Notes under the pieces: generated by a model
What the model was told of the DNA's origin: nothing
Seen by the model: only the letters and a program-made list of their open reading frames with translations
The model's database searches: none
Origin: Empedobacter stercoris
GTDB taxonomy: Bacteria; Bacteroidota; Bacteroidia; Flavobacteriales; Weeksellaceae
Assembly (NCBI RefSeq): GCF_025244765.1
Contig: NZ_CP104209.1
Span: forward strand, 1,866,501-1,930,500
Direction of reading: 5' to 3'
Length of the DNA stretch: 64,000 nucleotides
Shown here: piece by piece, positions 3,713 through 14,167 of the stretch
How the letters are laid out: every line of letters starts with the position of its first letter
Numbering within the stretch: the first letter of the stretch is position 1
Position numbers and translations under genes: made by a program

Positions 3713-4508
3713 ACTCGTCTCCAAATCATATGACATTTTCTTCAGCCTTTTTCAATACTTAAATTCGTTGTCACTCTTAACTTGTCGAAGAATCTTAACC
3801 TCATCCACTTCTAACAACCAATTTTAGAGCCGACATACGATTTGCAGACGAGCTACAATCTATTGAAACGAACGTAAAAAAATCAGGAATGAAGATGAAC
3901 ATTAATACTTCTTGAAGAATCTTTCTGTCACTTTTTTTATTCATAGCATATCTATTTTAATTATCGGTATTCATATGCCCTTCGGGGAAGAGCATCCAAA
4001 AAACATTTGAGATTAAGAGGAGGAGCCATGGTATGGCTCAGGTATTTTAAATAAATTATTTCCATAAAGTTGGCAACTCGCTCCACTCAAACACTCCAAC
4101 TTTTTTTATTCCAATAATTTAGAGTTGAATTGCATTTCGATTCTAAATCGTCGGATTTTTCTAATTCTTTTTCAATATTCAAATTCCTTATTAATAACAT
4201 TTGAAATTAAAAATTCTTTAATGTCACTTTTTAATTGACTAAAAAGTAACCAAAAAGTCAAGGCCGTAAACCTCTCTACTAAAAATGTTCTCATTCCACT
4301 AAAGATTTTAAAAACCCTACGGGCTAAAACCTTTTAAACGCTCCATTCAACCATTTTCTTAACGTGAGAGTTTTAATGCCGGATTTTTCTAATTCTTTTT
4401 CAATATTCAAATTCCTTGTCATTCAGAACTTTCAAAGAATCTCATATCTAATTGTTCATAAAAACATTTTACATCGTAAATCCCATATCAAAAACCTTTT
4501 ACAAATAT

Positions 4509-4569
4509 TCTACTGCCACCCTACTGCCACTATGTTGCCTTTATCCTGCCTTTATCCTGCCTTTATCTT
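4509..4569. repeat. Short tandem repeats downstream of the dCas12f gene
   Basis: Two copies of CTACTGCCAC (4510-4519 and 4521-4530) are followed by three 11-bp units of GCCTTTATCCT type (4537-4569). They lie 120-180 bp past the stop codon of the dCas12f-like gene, read on its strand. Whether they belong to a guide-RNA locus or are simple slippage is unknown. Confidence 0.6.
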
Positions 4570-4579
4570 GGGACTATCT

Positions 4580-4692
4580 AAGGAGTTTCAATAAAACCTA
4601 AAAATCCCCCTTTGTATATGTTTTTCACATTTGATGAGCGTTTACAATCACCTCACCCTACGGGTGTACAAATCACCCTCCAAAATTATGGT
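4580..4692 (-). ncRNA. Candidate guide-RNA region 3' of dCas12f (hypothesis)
   Basis: TnpB-type and exapted TnpB-type proteins often have their guide RNA encoded at or just after the 3' end of the gene. On the minus strand, directly after the stop codon, the sequence can form CACCC-GTA-GGGTG, an alternative GGGTG...CACCC stem, and further on ATGT-GAAAA-ACAT. This stretch is unlike the repeats beyond it, apart from a shared CCCTACGGG. I cannot define a scaffold end, a guide or a target. No stretch of it found a clear match elsewhere in the window by eye. Confidence 0.3.
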
Positions 4693-5790
4693 TTAAGCTG
4701 TTATAAGCTCAATACCTGCTTTATCAGCTTTGTATTTTATTTTATGTATGAGCTCATAATAGCTCCAGTTTCTTAAGACAAATCTTTCTTCTTTGGCAAT
4801 TTGTATTTTTTCTTCTTGATCTACAATAACTATCGTTCCTGCTTTTTTTTCCACACAAAAATCAATTAACATTCTACTGTAGACATGTAGCCGATGATGA
4901 ATATATTTACTCTCTGTATTTTTTAATTTTTTTGCTATTTTTAATTTTCTTGCTTTTCCTTTCCCTCCTTTGCAAAAGGGCACTCCTTCTAGTATTCTTT
5001 TACGAGAAGCTTGTATGGCTAATCTTCTATATAGAAATTCTTCTTTGCTACCAATGGTTAGCTGAGATCTACCTATTTTTACAACCAACGGATATTCTAA
5101 TGACAAAGAAACTTCTGCAATAATATCGGATTGTAATTGATTTTTTTCTTTTTCAATTTCTACCGTGAATACCCAAAATATTTTATTTTTTTCTAATTTA
5201 ATATGTGATCTACAAATTCTAATTTCGTTATTTACTATTTGCTCCAATAGCTTATAATTATCAATATAGTCTCTTCCAAGATATGTTTTAAAAGGAATTT
5301 TATAAAGTTTAAAATAAATGTATTTTTTATCTGTATCATACGAGAATTTACTTATTCTCGCTATGTTAAAAGGAATTGCTATATCCCGTTTAAAAATTTT
5401 TAATGAAAGTTCCCCTTTCCAATACCTGACACAATCTTTCTTGAAAGATAGGTATAAGGTATTCATCAAACTAGACAATACATACATCGGAACTTCGTCC
5501 TTAAAACGTTTTGAGAGCACACGATAAATGGTATTCATACGAGAACATTCTAGTATTCCATCTTCATCTTTATTTTCATCTACTAATTTATATTTGATTC
5601 CTTCAGAGAAATAAAAAAAATCTTTCACCATTTCTTGCACATACAAATGAGAAACAATCAAATTAGCCGCTATAAAACATCTATTTTGCCATTTATAAAG
5701 CGTACTCAAAACTTCTTTTCGTTCTTCTTGGGTCGGTAAATCAGCAATTAACTGTATTTTACGTGTTAAAAAGATTGTAGAATTTTTCAT
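4693..5790 (-). CDS. Nuclease-dead TnpB/Cas12f-like protein (dCas12f), sigma-factor partner
   Basis: The 365-residue protein has the C-terminal layout of TnpB/Cas12f proteins: a RuvC-I-like strand at 223-240, a basic helical stretch (about 254-310), the strand GTIVIVDQE at 318-326, and RNWSYYELIHKIKYKAD...GIEL at 340-362, which matches the TnpB block before the zinc finger. The catalytic signature is gone. The RuvC-I Asp position is Ser228 (AEVSLS in place of a D-L-G motif), the RuvC-II Glu position is Val323, and the protein stops at residue 365 before any zinc finger or third RuvC Asp. It should bind RNA-guided DNA without cutting. It starts 2 nt after the sigma factor stop codon, so the two are co-transcribed. 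Known biology: nuclease-dead Cas12f homologues that act with sigma-E factors have recently been reported in Bacteroidota. That this pair works the same way is inference. Confidence 0.8.
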   Translation of the reverse strand: MKNSTIFLTRKIQLIADLPTQEERKEVLSTLYKWQNRCFIAANLIVSHLYVQEMVKDFFYFSEGIKYKLVDENKDEDGILECSRMNTIYRVLSKRFKDEVPMYVLSSLMNTLYLSFKKDCVRYWKGELSLKIFKRDIAIPFNIARISKFSYDTDKKYIYFKLYKIPFKTYLGRDYIDNYKLLEQIVNNEIRICRSHIKLEKNKIFWVFTVEIEKEKNQLQSDIIAEVSLSLEYPLVVKIGRSQLTIGSKEEFLYRRLAIQASRKRILEGVPFCKGGKGKARKLKIAKKLKNTESKYIHHRLHVYSRMLIDFCVEKKAGTIVIVDQEEKIQIAKEERFVLRNWSYYELIHKIKYKADKAGIELITA

Positions 5791-5792
5791 AT

Positions 5793-6575
5793 TTAGATAT
5801 TTAGTGGTTTAAACTTGTTTTGTTGAGTCAATTTATAAGCGACTACAAATTCATTGTGCACTTCTTTCTGAGAAATTTCTAATGTCTTGGCAATTGTTGT
5901 AAACGATTGTTTCTTCTCGAATCGAAGCTTTAAAATCAACGATTGCTTTTCGGTCATTTGATCTTGTTCCTTTACCTCAGAAACAATTTCCTTTTTAGAC
6001 ATTAATATATCATGACTATTAATCAGGCTCTTAACATCCTCTATTGCACTTTTAATCTCCTTACTCGTTTCTGAAACTCTTTTTCCCATTGCATTGGCAA
6101 TTGCTTTATATCTAAATCCATATTTCAAGCAGAGTTCAATCAAATGTTTTCTTTCAGCGCTTAATAGGGGTAATATTTTTCTAATTTCTTCATAATGTTC
6201 GTCATGTATTACTTTATCCCTTATGTTTTCTGCAACTTCTAACGGATCGTATCCAGTCAAATAGATATCATAATTCTCGTAACTCTCTAATGAATGCACT
6301 GACCTAAAAAATTTGTTTTTAGAACTTCTATAATGCGAATAACAACTTTGTTTCAAAACAAGTCGCGTGAAATAAAAGATATGTTCAGGTCTTTCTATGT
6401 TATCTCGATATTCCCATAATCTAAGGAAAGCATCTTGTACCAAACATTCTACAACAAATTCATCTGTAATTATTTGTTTACCAATCCAAAAAAGTAACCT
6501 TTTATGTCGTACATAAATTTTTTCTAAGGCTTTGGGATCGCCTTTTTTCAGTAATTCATATTCTTTTTCTAGCAT
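5793..6575 (-). CDS. ECF-like sigma-70 factor paired with dCas12f
   Basis: Residues 12-85 match sigma region 2 (VECLVQDAFLRLWEYRDNI, then FYFTRLVLKQSCYSHYR), which binds core RNA polymerase and melts the -10 region. Residues 132-186 look like a region 4 helix-turn-helix (LPLLSAERKHLIEL...YKAIANAMGKRVSE). A second, similar module follows at 205-252 (QMTEKQSLILKLRF...FTTIAKTLEISQKEV). At 260 residues it is longer than usual Bacteroidota ECF factors of about 160-200, because of this second HTH. No anti-sigma gene is adjacent, so control is more likely through the downstream dCas12f-like partner. The pair probably forms a guide-directed initiation complex (inference). Upstream DNA has low-complexity ACGTAAAAC-like words and no clear TAnnTTTG box. 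Confidence 0.85.
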   Translation of the reverse strand: MLEKEYELLKKGDPKALEKIYVRHKRLLFWIGKQIITDEFVVECLVQDAFLRLWEYRDNIERPEHIFYFTRLVLKQSCYSHYRSSKNKFFRSVHSLESYENYDIYLTGYDPLEVAENIRDKVIHDEHYEEIRKILPLLSAERKHLIELCLKYGFRYKAIANAMGKRVSETSKEIKSAIEDVKSLINSHDILMSKKEIVSEVKEQDQMTEKQSLILKLRFEKKQSFTTIAKTLEISQKEVHNEFVVAYKLTQQNKFKPLNI

Positions 6576-6642
6576 AATAAAGGTGGTTTTTTATTAAGTT
6601 TTACGTTCTACGGTTAACGTTTTACGTTTTTACATAGTTTTA

Positions 6643-6710
6643 AATTCAACATTAGGTTTAAAAGCCACTCCTTATCCTGTACATCGCGCCAACTTTGTTT
6701 TGGGGAAAGG
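6643..6710. repeat. Paired repeat containing ACATCGCGCCAACTTTG, copy 1
   Basis: About 68 bp, from AATTCAACATT through AAAGCCACTCCTT and ACATCGCGCCAACTTTG to a short purine run. The second copy is at 7579-7645 with the same polarity. This copy begins about 70 bp upstream of the sigma-factor start codon. Function unknown. Confidence 0.75.
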
Positions 6711-6920
6711 GGTTTTTATTTTTACGTTTGACGTGATACGCTTAACGTTTTACATTTTTTTTCTTATTAATATTCAAATTCATTTTTATCAACAAATTTT
6801 GTCATTCTGAGCTTGTCTCAGAATCGCATCCAATATGTCATTTCGAGGTATCGAGAAATCTTTTTTCATTTTTTGAGCGCAAAAAACGAAACAAAAAACG
6901 CTTGTCTTTGATTTTCGACG

Positions 6921-7008
6921 GTCAAAATAAGTTTCAGCCATTCAATATTTTAAATCATTTGCTGCGCAAACAGTAAAATATTTTAACCATTTACTTCAAC
7001 TTTTTGAC
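6921..7008 (+). repeat. 88-bp nested hairpin repeat, copy 4 (compensated variant)
   Basis: The middle stem reads AATATTTTA/TAAAATATT instead of AATGTTTTA/TAAAACATT: a G-C pair is replaced by A-T on both sides. The tip reads TTTGC-TGC-GCAAA, a loop change only. Confidence 0.85.
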
Positions 7009-8023
7009 ACTCGCCTCCAAATCATATGACATTTTTTTAATCCTTTTTTCTAAGTTCAAATTCGTTATCATTTCGATTCTAAATCGTCGGATTTTTAATT
7101 CTTATTTAAATATTCAAATTCGTTGTCATTATTAATATGGTCAATAAACCTCGGTTACTGAAATTGTCGAAGCATCTAAGTGTCTTTTACTTATTAAATA
7201 AGACATCTTACATCTCGAATCTAATATCTAATCTGTACTTTGTCTATAACACAATTCTCTCAACCCACAAATTCCCCTTGGACAGTTTTAAAAAATACAT
7301 TAATAAATGAAATAAAATTTAACACTAATACATTCTATGAAGATCATTAACACTCTTTTAGATTGTCTTTGGGGAATAAAATGTGAGTCATAATTGTTTA
7401 CAAATTTTGCACTCCCACTTGTTTATTCAACAGTAAGGATCGAAATTTTTGTACCATGTGAGTCATGGTTTTTCTTTGTGTATACCAAAGGGATAGCACA
7501 AAATAGTTCTTGAAGCGCAACACAAGATTGCCTACTAATTTTAAAGTAAAATATTCACATAATTTTACATCGTTTTTTAATTCAACATTTTTTTTTAAAG
7601 CCACTCCTTTTCCTGTACATCGCGCCAACTTTGTTTTTGGAAAGGTTTTTTTTTTTTTTTACGTTCTACGTTATTTTTTAACCACAATAGAAACATAGTT
7701 TTTTATTAAGTTTTACTTTCTACATTTTACAGTTTTTGTCATTCAGAGCCTGTCGAAGAATCTATCAGTCACTTTTTTTAGAGATTGTATAGTTCAGTAA
7801 ACTGAAACATAGTGATCTCCTAACTATGTTTAATAGATTTATCTTCTTTATTGCTCTTTTATTTTTTACATCCAGTTCTATGTACCTATGTGGTGAATAT
7901 TATTTTCTACCATTCTAAACATGGGCACTGAGGCACTCGAAGTGCAGAATCTTTCTATTTTTTTTCTTCTAACTTTTACCTTAATGCAAAAGTTACAAAA
8001 CATCAAGTCTTTGATTTTCGACG

Positions 8024-8111
8024 GTCAAAATAAGTTTCAGCCATTCAATGTTTTAAATCATTTGCTACGCAAACAGTAAAACATTTTAACCATTCTCATC
8101 AACTTTTTGAC
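8024..8111 (+). repeat. 88-bp nested hairpin repeat, copy 5
   Basis: Middle stem AATGTTTTA/TAAAACATT. The outer stem and total length are as in the other copies. Confidence 0.8.
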
Positions 8112-8600
8112 ACTCGCCTCCAAATCATATGACATTTTATGATCCTTTTTCAATACTTAAATTCGTTGTCACTCTTAGCTTGTCGAAGAATCTTAACCTC
8201 ATCCACTTTTAACAACCAATTTTAGAGCCGACATACGATTTGCAGACGAGCTACAATCTATTGAAACGAACGTAAAAAAATCAGGAATGAAGATGAACAT
8301 TAATACTTCTTGAAGAATCTTTCTGTCACTTTTTTTATTCATTACATATCTATTTTTATTGTCGGTATTCATATGCCCTTCGGGGAAGCTCATCCAAAAA
8401 ACATTTGAGATTAAGAGGAGGAGCCATGGTATGGCTCAGGTAATTCAACTAAATAAATTATTTCCATAAAGTTGGCAACTCGCTTCTCTCAAACACTCCA
8501 ACTTTTTAATTTCAATAATTTAGAGTTGAATTACATTTCGATTCTAAATCGTCAGATTTTTTTATTCCTATTTAAACATTTAACTCCTTTTTTAATAATG

Positions 8601-8760
8601 AATTTATAAACCGTCCTTGCTGAAGAGTCGAGCGTCAATTCGGCGTAAAGAGCGTTAAAAATGATTTACTTTTCGCATTTTATATGCGAATGATTTAAAG
8701 CATTTAGCGAATAGACGTTATTGACCGACTTGTAAGCACAGACTTGATTTTTTTTGGTTC
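8601..8760 (+). repeat. 158-bp direct repeat, copy 2
   Basis: Nearly identical to 818-975, including the TTCGCAT/ATGCGAA stem and the T-run before GGTT. It is followed by a UUCG element at 8838-8862, as copy 1 is by the element at 1054. Confidence 0.8.
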
Positions 8761-8908
8761 TTTTTTTTATCAAGAAAAAAATGAACATAAAGTACTTTCT
8801 ATCACTTTTTTATTCATTACATATCTATTTTTATTGTCGGTATTCATATGCCCTTCGGGGAAGAGAGCAAAAAAGTAATCAAAAAACTCTTGTCTTTGAT
8901 TTTCGACG

Positions 8909-8996
8909 GTCAAAATAAGTTTCAGCCATTCAATATTTTAAATCATTTGCTGCGCAAACAGTAAAATATTTTAACCATTTACTTCAACTTTTTGAC
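8909..8996 (+). repeat. 88-bp nested hairpin repeat, copy 6 (compensated variant)
   Basis: Carries the same paired change as copy 4 (AATATTTTA/TAAAATATT) while keeping the 88-bp length and the outer GTCAAAA/TTTTGAC stem. Confidence 0.85.
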
Positions 8997-9271
8997 ACTC
9001 GCCTCCAAATCATATGACATTTTATGATCCTTTTTCAAATACATAATACATTGTACTTTTTACATTTTACTTAATACTTAAAAAACATCTTACAATTCTA
9101 ACTGAATCGAATAACCATCTGTGCATTTCTATTATAAGAAATACATATTTAGAGAGAGTACTTTACTTGATTTGTAGAGGAATTAAACCAAGCATATTAT
9201 ATGAAGTTCGATGCGGATGTGATGGAAGAAAACGACCAAAAACAAGAAAGGCATGGAACTCATCTTAATGC

Positions 9272-9382
9272 ATTAGAGGTACTGGCATACCCAAAGGAAC
9301 AATAAGAGAGCCCACGCCTAGGTCGTGAGCAAAACTACTTATTTTTCTTGTTCCTTTTTATGAAAAGTGCCAGTTTTCTAAT
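9272..9382 (+). ncRNA. Candidate rod-shaped structured RNA
   Basis: Five nested stems are visible: ATTAGA (9272-9277) with TCTAAT (9377-9382); ACTGGCA (9281-9287) with TGCCAGT (9368-9374); AAAGGAACAA (9293-9302) with TTGTTCCTTT (9348-9357); TAAG (9303-9306) with CTTA (9338-9341); and GCCCACG (9310-9316) with CGTGAGC (9324-9330, one mismatch) around a CCTAGGT loop. A terminator-like hairpin follows at once, which favours a plus-strand transcript. The long rod with internal bulges is reminiscent of 6S RNA, but I cannot identify the family. The strand is inferred from the terminator. Confidence 0.5.
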
Positions 9383-9391
9383 ACAAGAGAA

Positions 9392-9414
9392 AAAGTAATA
9401 ATTACTTTATTTTT
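9392..9414 (+). terminator. Terminator after the structured RNA candidate
   Basis: AAAGTAAT (9392-9399), one-base loop, ATTACTTT (9401-9408), then ATTTTT. The stem is AT-rich, so it would be a weak terminator. Confidence 0.45.
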
Positions 9415-9513
9415 AAATAATTGATATTCTTTTATTTATTCAAATGTATAAACAAAAAAAATGTAAACCAAATAGTTTACAACAAATTTTTAATAAACTC
9501 TTAAAATTGTCTT

Positions 9514-9774
9514 ATGCCTAAGTTAAGTAATGAAGATAAAGAGTTAAGAGATACTATTAAAAAAAGGTTTTTAACAATTTTAGAAGAAAAGAAAATGTCA
9601 AAATCAGATTTAGCAAACTTATCTGATAAAGATCGTCAAGCTATAAATAAATGGACAAACTTGAATAATGAAGATGGATTAACAATTTACACAATTAAAA
9701 ACCTATGTCGAATTCTTAATATAAGTTTGACAGCATTTTTTAATGATAAATCATTTAATAATTATACAAAATAA
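9514..9774 (+). CDS. Small XRE/Cro-like helix-turn-helix protein
   Basis: The 86-residue protein is charged at its N-terminus and has a helix-turn-helix-like middle: MSKSDLANLSDKDRQAINKW (about 28-47), then LTIYTIKNLCRILNISLTAF (about 56-75), the usual spacing of XRE-type DNA-binding folds. It is a probable transcriptional regulator of unknown target. It stands alone on the plus strand between the repeat island and the capsule operon, with AT-rich DNA upstream and a strong terminator just after the stop codon. Confidence 0.7.
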   Translation: MPKLSNEDKELRDTIKKRFLTILEEKKMSKSDLANLSDKDRQAINKWTNLNNEDGLTIYTIKNLCRILNISLTAFFNDKSFNNYTK

Positions 9775-9775
9775 C

Positions 9776-9797
9776 AAAGGCTCCTAATGGAGCCTTT
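9776..9797. terminator. Bidirectional terminator between HTH gene and capsule operon
   Basis: AAAGGCTCC-TAAT-GGAGCCTTT is a perfect 9-bp stem. It is followed by TATTATTTTG on the plus strand and, read on the minus strand, by GTTATTTTG. It can end both the HTH gene and the long minus-strand polysaccharide operon. Confidence 0.9.
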
Positions 9798-9816
9798 ATT
9801 ATTTTGTACGTATAGA

Positions 9817-10827
9817 TTAATTTACTTTTAATAAGCGATCGCATTTTGAGAACATTATTCCTTCTTTATAATTCGAATGTTGAGTGATATCATTATTCCC
9901 TTTTAACCATTCGATATAAATAGCTGCGGTATTGTTTCCTGCTTCATGCGAAAATGGATATCCGCCACCGAAGCGTGGATTTAATTCTAACACATACAAT
10001 TCTCCATCATGTTCGAAAACATCACAATCTAAATTACCAATATGTTTAAGATTTTCTCCAATCGCTTTTCCTATCTGCTCAAAACGACTATCAATAACGG
10101 AAATTGCTTTATCAGTTTCACCAGAACGCATTTGTAATTTTTGGCGAACAAACGTACCTACATAATTTCCTTCAAAATCATTCAACACATCCATACCATA
10201 TTCTTTTCCAGGAATTTTTTCTTGAATTAATATGGCATGATCTATATCCTCTTTACTCGCTTCAGCCAGTATCGTACGTTTTAAACGAATCGTTTGCAAT
10301 TTATAAGCTAATTCTAATTCTTCCATCGTTTCTGGAAAGTCAATACCGATCGATGCACTACCCCAACGTGGTTTTATAACCAAAGGGAATTTTAATTCAC
10401 CCGATGCAATTGCCTTTTTAGCTTCCTCAAAATCAATATATGTTTTGGGTGATTTCAAATCGTTTGCTTCCAAAAATTTTACGGTTTCCCATTTATCAAA
10501 AGCTACTTTTATGGCTTGTTCATCCGACACAATAACTTTTGCACCCAAAGTTTCTATTTGCGCTTTGGCTTCACTTAAAATCGGAAGTTCTAAATCGTTA
10601 AGTGAAATCACACAATTAATGTTATTGTCTGAAACGATTTTCAATAAAGAAGGAATATATTCTTGGCTATAAATAGCAGGTACCTGTATGGCTATATCGG
10701 CATCTACCAATGCAGGGGCCGTTAATTGCATATCAGTAGCAAAGACTTTTCCTTCCCCTTTTAATGCTTCTTTAAAATAATTGATTAAATAATTGCGACG
10801 TCCTGCGCAGGTAAATAGTATGTTCAT
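9817..10827 (-). CDS. ATP-grasp family ligase (CarB/PylC-like)
   Basis: The 336-residue protein starts with a Rossmann-like pre-ATP-grasp fold (MNILFTCAGRRNYLI). The ATP-grasp core follows: PLVIKPRWGSASIGI supplies the ATP-binding lysine, and ELNPRFGGGYP near the C-terminus is the metal-binding strand. Such enzymes join a carboxylate to an amine through an acyl-phosphate. It is the last gene of the capsule operon, 4 nt after a PLP-enzyme gene, so it may attach an amino acid to a sugar or build an unusual precursor (inference). The substrate cannot be read from the sequence. Confidence 0.8.
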   Translation of the reverse strand: MNILFTCAGRRNYLINYFKEALKGEGKVFATDMQLTAPALVDADIAIQVPAIYSQEYIPSLLKIVSDNNINCVISLNDLELPILSEAKAQIETLGAKVIVSDEQAIKVAFDKWETVKFLEANDLKSPKTYIDFEEAKKAIASGELKFPLVIKPRWGSASIGIDFPETMEELELAYKLQTIRLKRTILAEASKEDIDHAILIQEKIPGKEYGMDVLNDFEGNYVGTFVRQKLQMRSGETDKAISVIDSRFEQIGKAIGENLKHIGNLDCDVFEHDGELYVLELNPRFGGGYPFSHEAGNNTAAIYIEWLKGNNDITQHSNYKEGIMFSKCDRLLKVN

Positions 10828-10831
10828 AATG

Positions 10832-11743
10832 TTATTCTTCAGCTAAAAAATTAAATATTCCTCCTGTGTGCCAGAACAAAATGTTTTTATCCTCTAATTT
10901 ATTGTTTTTTATGTAGTCCACCATTCCGTAAAACGCTTTCCCCGAATAACAAGTATCTAAGATAAAACCATATTCTTTTATAGAATTTAAGCACAATTCT
11001 TTTAATTCATTATTGTATTGTCCGTAACCACCCATCAAGTAATTGTCTAAAACAATAGATTCTTTGTTTGAACAATTGATATTATAATGGTGACATAACT
11101 CTTTGTAAAACTCATCAACAATTTTGGTTGCTGGCTCAGATTTCCGTCCTACAGAAATACCGATAACTTGTGTGTTTTCAAATCCATATTTATCCAAACC
11201 TGCTAATATACCCGACTGTGTGGAACCAGTGCCTGATGCGTGAAAAATAAAATCCGGTTCCCAGTTAGTATTATCACAATATGCTTTTAGTTCTTGAACT
11301 GCGGCAATGTATGCCAATCCTCCTTCCAAAGTATGACCACCGCCCCAAATATAATAAGGTTTCAATCCGTTTCTTTGATAAATAGCCATAGCGTCATCCA
11401 TCGCTTGTCCGATTTGGTTAGCCTCATCAACAAATACAATGTTTGCTCCCGAAAGACGCATGATTTTTGCATTGCCCGATTGCTTTTCAAAGTCCGCTTT
11501 TGAACCATGTAGAACAAGTGTACAATCCATTTTATGTTGCGCTGCATATACCGCCACTGCCCTACAATGATTGGATTGAAAACCACCTGTTGTCACTAAG
11601 GCATTAGCTTTCTCTTGAATGATAGCTTTAGCAATATAATCCATTTTTCGACCTTTATTTCCTCCTCCTAAGGAAGAATAAAGGTCGTCACGGAAAATTT
11701 TTAACGGTTTTGAGATACTTTCTATTTTACTAAATGTCATCAT
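10832..11743 (-). CDS. PLP-dependent ACC deaminase/D-cysteine desulfhydrase-like enzyme
   Basis: Of 303 residues, GGGNKGRKMDYI (about 26-37) carries the PLP lysine (Lys30) and GGFQSNHCRAVA the phosphate/substrate loop, both typical of the ACC deaminase/DcyD branch of fold-type II enzymes. It shares 14 bp with the upstream acetyltransferase gene, so translation is probably coupled. In a capsule operon it more likely makes or changes an amino acid for glycan decoration than degrades ACC (inference). The exact reaction is not predictable. Confidence 0.8.
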   Translation of the reverse strand: MMTFSKIESISKPLKIFRDDLYSSLGGGNKGRKMDYIAKAIIQEKANALVTTGGFQSNHCRAVAVYAAQHKMDCTLVLHGSKADFEKQSGNAKIMRLSGANIVFVDEANQIGQAMDDAMAIYQRNGLKPYYIWGGGHTLEGGLAYIAAVQELKAYCDNTNWEPDFIFHASGTGSTQSGILAGLDKYGFENTQVIGISVGRKSEPATKIVDEFYKELCHHYNINCSNKESIVLDNYLMGGYGQYNNELKELCLNSIKEYGFILDTCYSGKAFYGMVDYIKNNKLEDKNILFWHTGGIFNFLAEE

Positions 11744-12269
11744 CGATTATTTGTTTCCATTCAATTCTATCCCACTCTTCTTTTAACAAACCATAAAATC
11801 TTCTATTTTGATATTTGCCATTTTTCCATTTATGCTCTCGTAATAGCCCCTCTAATTTGAAACCTGCTTTTTCATAAATAGAATAGGCTGAAACATTATC
11901 ATCATTAGTATATAAGTATATCTTATGCAAATTTAACTTGGAAAAAGCGTAATTATACATCCAAATAGAAACTTTTTTTCCAATACCTTGTCCTTGCATT
12001 TCAGGATTTACCATAACATAGAACTCTGCATTATTGTGTTGTGTATGAATACCAGTAAATCCCCCCATAGCAATTAACTCATCATTTTCGTTTTTAAAAG
12101 AAAAATCAATTCTGTTTTGATTGCCTATGTTTTGATTAAACCATTTTTCTGTATCTCCAATTGTTGCAGGTAAATTAAAAAACATTGTACCGTTAATTTT
12201 TGGATTATTTATCCAATTCACTCTCGTTGTTATATCGTTATTTTTAAATTTAGCGGGATATATTTTCAT
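11730..12269 (-). CDS. GNAT N-acetyltransferase (RimJ/PseH-like)
   Basis: The 179-residue single GNAT domain carries the acetyl-CoA loop GQGIGKKVSIW, then YTNDDNVSAYSIYEKAGF, the classic motif B of RimJ/RimL/PseH proteins. In polysaccharide loci these enzymes acylate amino sugars on the nucleotide- or lipid-linked form. It overlaps the upstream phosphoglycosyltransferase gene by 20 bp, as acetyltransferase and PglC-type genes often do. It probably N-acylates the first sugar (inference). Confidence 0.82.
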   Translation of the reverse strand: MKIYPAKFKNNDITTRVNWINNPKINGTMFFNLPATIGDTEKWFNQNIGNQNRIDFSFKNENDELIAMGGFTGIHTQHNNAEFYVMVNPEMQGQGIGKKVSIWMYNYAFSKLNLHKIYLYTNDDNVSAYSIYEKAGFKLEGLLREHKWKNGKYQNRRFYGLLKEEWDRIEWKQIIDDDI

Positions 12270-12876
12270 TTTTTCGGTGTTTATCTAATGTTGTATATAG
12301 ATTTCCAGGAATTATTACAATGTCTTTTCTATTGATAACGTTTTGAATTGTTTGAATAAGAATTTTTACATCATTTAAAAATGATAAGTTTTCAACATAT
12401 TGTGCATCCATCTCCAAACGTTCATCCCAATTCACGGTGTTTCTTCCATTAACTTGTGCATATCCTGTAATTCCAGGTCTTACAGTATGTCTCAGCTTTT
12501 CTCTTTTTGTATAGTATGGTAAATAATGCACTAATAATGGTCGAGGACCAATTAAACTCATATCACCTTTTAACACATTGATTAATTGTGGAATTTCGTC
12601 TAATGAGGTTTTGCGCACAAAGCACCCAGCCTTGGTTAAACGTTCTGCATCAGGCAATAAATTTCCTTGTGCATCTTTTTTATCGTTCATAGATTTGAAC
12701 TTGATGATGTTGAAAATACGTTCGTCTTTCCCCGGGCGTGCTTGAAAGAAAAACGGTTTACCTTGATTTGCAAAATACAAGGCGATTGTTACTACGATGA
12801 ATATTGGGGACAAAATTAACAATCCGAAAAAGGCTGCCAGAAAATCGAATACTCTTTTAATTATTTTTTTGTACAT
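12250..12876 (-). CDS. Small initiating phosphoglycosyltransferase (PglC-like sugar transferase)
   Basis: The 208-residue protein has one N-terminal re-entrant membrane helix (about 10-35) and the full bacterial sugar transferase core: FKSMNDKKD, the catalytic Asp-Glu pair in KTSLDEIPQL, and SLIGPRPLLVHYLPYY with RPGITGYAQVNGRN. It moves a sugar-1-phosphate from a UDP-sugar to undecaprenyl phosphate, the first step of repeat-unit assembly at the inner membrane. The size fits the minimal PglC class rather than the WbaP class encoded at 56974-58362, so the window carries two different initiators. Confidence 0.92.
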   Translation of the reverse strand: MYKKIIKRVFDFLAAFFGLLILSPIFIVVTIALYFANQGKPFFFQARPGKDERIFNIIKFKSMNDKKDAQGNLLPDAERLTKAGCFVRKTSLDEIPQLINVLKGDMSLIGPRPLLVHYLPYYTKREKLRHTVRPGITGYAQVNGRNTVNWDERLEMDAQYVENLSFLNDVKILIQTIQNVINRKDIVIIPGNLYTTLDKHRKNENISR

Positions 12877-12880
12877 CTTA

Positions 12881-14167
12881 TTATGAAATTAGTGATTTGA
12901 TATATTTTCTTTTACCACTTTTTTCTAAAGGAATACTATCCACAATATGAATTTCAACTGTATTTTTAAAAATATTATAAAGTTCATTTTGTATGTTTTT
13001 TTCTAATACAGAAATCTCAGTATCTTTTTCGACTATAGAGATGTAAAAATCTACTTTTTCTAATGAATGCTGAATGAGCTGAAATTCCTTAACTTCTGGA
13101 AATTTCCACATTAGATTAGTAATAATATGTGGCGAAATCTTCTCGTTTAGATTATTTCTTAACATATCTATCTTACGCCCCTCAATAGAGGTAATAACTT
13201 TTCTTCCATTAATATAGGTAAACTTGGCTAAATCTCCTGTATCATACCTAATAATTGGAACAGCTTTATTAAAAAAATCGGTAATAACAATTCGGGCAAT
13301 TTCATCTTCTTGAGCAGGTTCATCTGAATTTACTTTTAAAAACTCAAAATAATAACTACCTTCATTTATTTCAAAATAATCTTCTCCTGTTATCGGTTGC
13401 TGAGCTAAAATTCCATTTTCTTGATTAGAGTAACGTGACATAACTGGGCATCTAAATACTTTAAGCATTTTTTCTTTTACCATTAATGGTAATTCTTCAG
13501 CTCCAGTTATAATAGATTTTATATTCCATTTAATATTTGAATTAGCATCATAATGATTCATTAAAGCTGTAAATGAAGAAGCATATCCTAAAATTACTTT
13601 GCTGTTATTGTCTTTTAACATAACATTTTTCAATCTCTCTGCTCCATTATAACTTAAATCTGATGTATCGAACATTTTAAAATTTTCCTTAAATGACGAA
13701 AAGAAGTTTTTTTTGTTTATAGAATTCCATATCCGAATAAAATACATTCTGTCACCAATGTTATAATTTCCAATTTTGTAAAAGAATAATAAATCTGCTT
13801 GATTTCTTTCTACTTTTTCTTTATTTTGATGTATTCTGAAAGGTGTGCCACTAGAACCACTTGTGGACATTACTCTAAGAGTATCTTTTATTTCAAAATA
13901 TTCTTTAGAAAAAATTTCCTCATAGTTTTGAATAATGATATTTTTATCAATAATAGGAAAATCTTTTAAGGAACTCCCTGTTATATTTTTATAAAATTCA
14001 GAATTATTTTTAGCATACGATAAAATATTAATTAAATTTTGATTATGGCTGTTTTTATTATACTCAAGATTTTCAAAACTGTTTTTAATTTCTATAAAAT
14101 GTTTTTTTATTTTTCCTCCTTTTATTAAGTCAAAAAGCCAAAAAATGTAGTACCTAAAGTTTTTCAT
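12881..14167 (-). CDS. CapK/PaaK-like AMP-binding protein
   Basis: The 428-residue protein resembles phenylacetate-CoA ligase and the CapK proteins of capsule loci. STSGSSGTPF (about 103-112) is the nucleotide-binding P-loop of the ANL superfamily and RYDTGDLAKF the later core motif. ANL enzymes activate carboxylates as adenylates. The substrate in polysaccharide loci is unknown. It lies 4 nt upstream of the PglC-like gene and is followed by an acetyltransferase, a PLP enzyme and an ATP-grasp ligase, together suggesting an acyl or amino-acyl modification (inference). Confidence 0.8.
   Translation of the reverse strand: MKNFRYYIFWLFDLIKGGKIKKHFIEIKNSFENLEYNKNSHNQNLINILSYAKNNSEFYKNITGSSLKDFPIIDKNIIIQNYEEIFSKEYFEIKDTLRVMSTSGSSGTPFRIHQNKEKVERNQADLLFFYKIGNYNIGDRMYFIRIWNSINKKNFFSSFKENFKMFDTSDLSYNGAERLKNVMLKDNNSKVILGYASSFTALMNHYDANSNIKWNIKSIITGAEELPLMVKEKMLKVFRCPVMSRYSNQENGILAQQPITGEDYFEINEGSYYFEFLKVNSDEPAQEDEIARIVITDFFNKAVPIIRYDTGDLAKFTYINGRKVITSIEGRKIDMLRNNLNEKISPHIITNLMWKFPEVKEFQLIQHSLEKVDFYISIVEKDTEISVLEKNIQNELYNIFKNTVEIHIVDSIPLEKSGKRKYIKSLIS

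Follow-up and report, generated by a model that had tools for sequence, protein, structure and literature searches.

A dCas12f-sigma-E operon of Empedobacter stercoris as a probable RNA-guided transcription system, and a structured leader RNA matched by the guides of its relatives

A sigma factor gene followed at once by a gene for a nuclease-dead Cas12f (dCas12f) raises the question of whether a guide RNA selects where RNA polymerase starts, and before which genes. Transcription directed by a guide RNA through dCas12f and a sigma factor came to light recently and is striking as a mechanism; the next question is which genes it serves in nature. One such pair lies in a stretch of 64,000 nt from Empedobacter stercoris (NZ_CP104209.1, positions 1,866,501 to 1,930,500), referred to here as the window and numbered from its first base. 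Judged from sequence, this locus has a probability of roughly 0.88 of being a dCas12f-sigma-E RNA-guided transcription system, of a kind already known through homologues in the PDB; the window contributes an ortholog whose guide is unusual. The operon and its RNA are made up as follows.

5793 to 6575, minus strand: extracytoplasmic function (ECF)-type sigma factor (RpoE-like), 260 aa, the operon's first gene; open reading frame (ORF) and profile matches
4693 to 5790, minus strand: dCas12f, 365 aa, with Ser228 and Val323 and without zinc finger or third Asp; match to PDB 9n9c_A
4612 to 4692, minus strand: putative guide-RNA scaffold of three hairpins, directly 3' of the dCas12f stop codon; covariance-model match of 78.4 bits
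4590 to 4611, minus strand: putative guide region (A)GGGGGATTTTTAGGTTTTA, placed by its position after the scaffold end ATATACAA; first base and length approximate

Both ORFs lie on the minus strand and are separated by 2 nt, as the preliminary description of the window had reported. In the profile search the sigma factor matched TIGR02937 (1.5e-17), and Pfam placed region 2 at residues 21-86 and region 4 at 205-239, with two region-4-like segments in all. Its sole match in a PDB sequence search was 9n9q_C, 'RpoE' (1.4e-81). The Cas12f-like protein had no match in Pfam and scored 9.1e-16 against NCBIfam guided_TnpB, under the curated cut-off, whereas its match to PDB 9n9c_A, 'Nuclease-deactivated Cas12f', reached 2.6e-148 with 61% identity over 361 aligned residues. 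The sigma gene is directly linked to dCas12f, and each protein is homologous to a chain of 9n9q. Because homologues of both proteins were solved together in that entry, the reading of the locus as a dCas12f-sigma-E system, advanced in the preliminary description, gains support, and the kind is already known. Among 197 genomes of the host's family within the Flavobacteriales, which formed our sample, 44 gave a match to the dCas12f protein, and the host genome carries two copies, that of the window and one at C1:1353924-1355018; the operon's protein is therefore not a chance ORF. Its nearest named relatives are from Empedobacter species.

The RuvC Asp-Glu-Asp of active TnpB and Cas12f nucleases is missing from the window protein. 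The RuvC-I Asp position is occupied by Ser228 (S in 37 of 38 full-length relatives, Y in the remaining one) and the RuvC-II Glu position by Val323 (K, L, V or M in the relatives, never E), and the chain stops at GIELITA, short of the zinc finger and the third Asp. The scoring of RuvC residues that had been suggested earlier thus found neither the Asp nor the Glu in any of the 38, and the early end and the two substitutions agree with what had been read from the translation. Since the catalytic positions are lost in every full-length relative checked, the alignment shows that dCas12f, the window copy included, is of a type that cannot cut. The TNB domain PF07282 had no match across the whole genome.

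Comparison with solved and described systems places the window pair closest to the dCas12f-RpoE structures (PDB 9n9c, 9n9m, 9n9o and 9n9q), which share with it a dCas12f of 365 aa that lacks the RuvC acids, a sigma factor of 260/261 aa (matched over residues 1-254 in 9n9q) and the presence of both chains in one entry; they come from another species and carry another guide, and the likeness of the window pair to them is known from sequence. The CRISPR-Cas12f nucleases (clustered regularly interspaced short palindromic repeats; PDB 9nzo, 9nzr) are homologous to the window protein over the RuvC region (1e-33), but it lacks their catalytic Asp and Glu and their zinc-finger end and has a sigma partner. 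A CRISPR array, the hallmark of type V-F, was not seen in 3900-9900, in agreement with the preliminary description; the only repeats there are dispersed, intergenic and 25-173 nt long. TnpB of IS200/IS605 elements, with its omega RNA, resembles the window system in homologous C-terminal blocks and in a guide RNA whose sequence overlaps the gene's 3' end or comes after it, whereas the window system has neither nuclease residues nor a TNB domain and has a sigma partner, and no transposase was seen with it. The TldR repressors (Wiegand 2024, cited in PMC13418256) are likewise nuclease-dead relatives of TnpB that serve as RNA-guided transcription factors, but they repress by occupancy, whereas the window system, with its sigma partner, would be expected to activate. 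The window protein falls outside this class of lone nuclease-dead TnpB proteins, as a sigma factor is linked to it and its closest solved protein is dCas12f.

Directly 3' of the dCas12f stop codon, a stretch of about 80 nt that the preliminary description had missed is conserved in relatives. It begins with GAGGGTG.TTGTACACCC, continues with a second hairpin GTGAG...CTCAC and a third one, and closes with ATATACAAC, beyond which the sequence is variable. Over its three helices in 30 sequences, 97.4% of cells are standard pairs, and helix 3 shows both-sided changes; Rfam gave no match for it, and the host genome has only two such scaffolds, one for each dCas12f. Its conserved, partly covarying hairpins and the homology to solved dCas12f suggest that the RNA encoded here would be bound by dCas12f. 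The guide would form an R-loop beside a short motif, to which the bound sigma factor would bring RNA polymerase, as the homologous pair solved together suggests, and transcription would start at a set distance downstream of the R-loop. For the window copy we infer both RNA binding and guided start in this way. Work of 2025 by Hoffmann, Sternberg and others reportedly found that dCas12f-sigma-E complexes initiate transcription at a fixed spacing from an R-loop, with a 5'-G motif. As a separate observation, some relatives have two to four scaffolds bearing different guides; tandem scaffolds occur at loci L014 and L018 (823-1098) and also at L019 and L033, each of them lying behind a partial copy of the 3' end of dCas12f; it looks as though guide RNAs multiplied through duplication of that end of the gene.

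The guides of relatives point to a candidate target. Most relatives outside Empedobacter have a guide that reads GGCGTGGGYTY and runs into T-rich sequence, and in many of them this sequence recurs about 200 bp ahead of the sigma gene (about 990 bp ahead of dCas12f), as well as elsewhere in the genomes. The recurrence falls in a structured leader, which has a counterpart in the window.

9245 to 9400, minus strand: structured RNA leader, 137.3 bits, E 5.2e-34 (covariance model), 2.7 kb upstream of the sigma start
9308 to 9318, minus strand: leader segment GGCGTGGGCTC, matched by the guides of relatives and not by the window guide (sequence comparison)
9514 to 9774, plus strand: divergent XRE (Cro/C1-type helix-turn-helix, HTH) gene, 86 aa, PF13443 1e-06, PF01381 4e-06

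The leader family, with L076:1427-1576, L063:1423-1576 and L098:6990-7140 as examples, is a 150-nt element of five helices, with 89.8% of cells paired. Its structure was set by hand in place of the automatic RNAalifold structure and is supported by covariation (55 cells with both-sided changes versus 19.8 in shuffles; score 0.217 versus 0.093). Neither Rfam nor the viral contigs, the latter searched for an exact leader 20-mer, gave a match. In relatives the usual order is XRE-type gene, leader, sigma-dCas12f, or XRE gene, leader, SusC, the divergent small gene being mostly XRE-like and very varied in sequence; in three trans copies a gene for a SusC/TonB-dependent receptor begins some 430-490 bp past the leader. 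Further copies stand upstream of receptor-type genes, other kinds of genes and a response-regulator-like gene. A giant non-coding RNA had been considered for the 1.4 kb that follow the leaders in trans; this proved wrong, as that stretch holds the starts of SusC genes running beyond the loci.

The guide GGCGTGGGYT of relatives matches the apical stem of the leader both in cis, before the operon, and in trans, before SusC genes. When successive segments along the guide RNA were compared with the cis leader, the best match was at the guide (8.27 of 10), versus 6.54 for shuffled guides, with a maximum of 7.13 in 200 rounds. By eye, the guides of some congeners use two registers on one leader stem, GCGTGGG.TCAC and GCTCACTTATCG, and in the leader a G stands immediately before either register. 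It is apparently the leader's most constant part that the guides exploit. In most non-Empedobacter relatives the site of the complex would thus be the leader apical stem before the sigma-dCas12f operon and before SusC genes, and the system would activate itself together with outer-membrane receptor operons. Autoregulation plus a SusC regulon is probable for relatives outside Empedobacter; this wiring through a structured leader, which we propose for those relatives and not for the window copy, is to our knowledge new. With a guide common to these relatives, a target site before their own operon and leaders before SusC genes, a concrete and testable regulon takes shape. At somewhat less than even odds, the dCas12f-sigma-E pairs of this family of Flavobacteriales may be master regulators, in which one short guide reads the leader's switching strand and controls its own operon and every leader-bearing receptor operon; the G and U that some guides carry at the two variable positions would then accommodate different leader alleles by wobble pairing.

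Several observations weigh against reading the locus as an RNA-guided transcription system. In relatives the match extends over no more than about 10-11 nt. The leader, found in 124 of the 197 genomes, occurs in 42 of 44 with dCas12f and is also common in those without it (82 of 153; Fisher p 4e-8, kinship ignored), so that it is conserved independently of dCas12f. The window guide (A)GGGGGATTTTTAGG matched neither leader of the genome, and no plausible promoter target was found for it in the whole genome and the SusC regions by pattern searches (guide 18-mer with <=3 mismatches, 11-mer exact). Its matches in the genome were rejected: they were coding matches, C1:1586797 is an intrinsic terminator, and from the intergenic site C1:652833 no gene is read. 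A site beside a 5'-G upstream of a gene, present for the guides of relatives, was not found for that of the window. The window guide is unusual in sequence, apparently diverged from those of relatives, and either has another target or belongs to a copy that is drifting.

On the latter account the copy, possibly inactive, has a guide that decayed or was retargeted after loss of the SusC target, its proteins staying intact. The missing match to the local leader fits this, as do broken dCas12f genes in congeners and the leader content of the host genome, which consists of the window's leader and one of plasmid type; none was found there before a SusC gene, and congeners have such leaders. However, the two ORFs and the scaffold are all undamaged, and the guide 11-mer GGGGGATTTTT (4600-4610) is a core common to five Empedobacter copies in four genomes, so that we regard drift as a serious but unlikely account.

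Because the leader is common in genomes without dCas12f, and because its guide-matched strand is kept equally well there, it is, on this comparison, an independent device, and it seems to represent a regulatory element, so far undescribed, that is present in most of the family genomes sampled. The guide-matching strand has an alternative partner in the 3' strand CCACGCC, which is followed by T-rich sequence. Joint changes in the two strands (GGCATGA/TCATGCC, GCCGTGA/TCACGGT, GGTGCGG/TCGCACC) gave a pairing reached by 7 of 2000 shuffles, and the strands look like a terminator/anti-terminator switch of attenuator type. The same two-partner arrangement would suit a guide that acts on the leader RNA and not on DNA, pairing with CCACGCC and blocking the terminator, that is, anti-termination in trans. 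We hold this to be improbable, as the homologue comes from a family of DNA-binding effectors solved with a sigma factor, and CCACGCC would find no partner in guides of the second register (GCTCACTTATCG). That an ordinary ECF sigma factor merely adjoins an unrelated, decayed TnpB with no joint function, to which the TnpB score under the NCBIfam cut-off might point, can be set aside, being contradicted by full-length conservation in many genomes, the conserved pair with its RNA scaffold and the presence of both proteins in 9n9q.

The second sigma-dCas12f-guide RNA operon of the host genome (L034:3216-5098) likewise lies downstream of a divergent HTH gene. The search found no leader in front of this operon, and its guide CAAGGGCCAATTTTT had no clear target, the near-matches all lying inside reading frames. 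Broken dCas12f copies with an internal stop or frame change occur at L008 (G092:C14:4194-5288) and L041 (G104:C28:1963-3059), and both retain the scaffold. A diverged leader at L097:1501-1663, minus strand (G000:C1:1191624-1191786), adjoins a mobilisation (Mob-like) gene and small genes, and similar diverged leaders in other Empedobacter genomes adjoin ParA-like or other genes, which argues for a plasmid-type branch of leaders; the leader is also found on a Rhizosphaericola plasmid. In the window, the dispersed repeats are direct and flank the operon (3900-4600 and 6600-9040), lying also between leader and sigma gene, and they flank the sigma-dCas12f operon in other Empedobacter genomes as well. 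Beyond the XRE gene, as seen from the operon, 9817-14167 holds genes that by eye resemble those of surface polysaccharide biosynthesis (ATP-grasp, sugar transferase, acetyltransferase).
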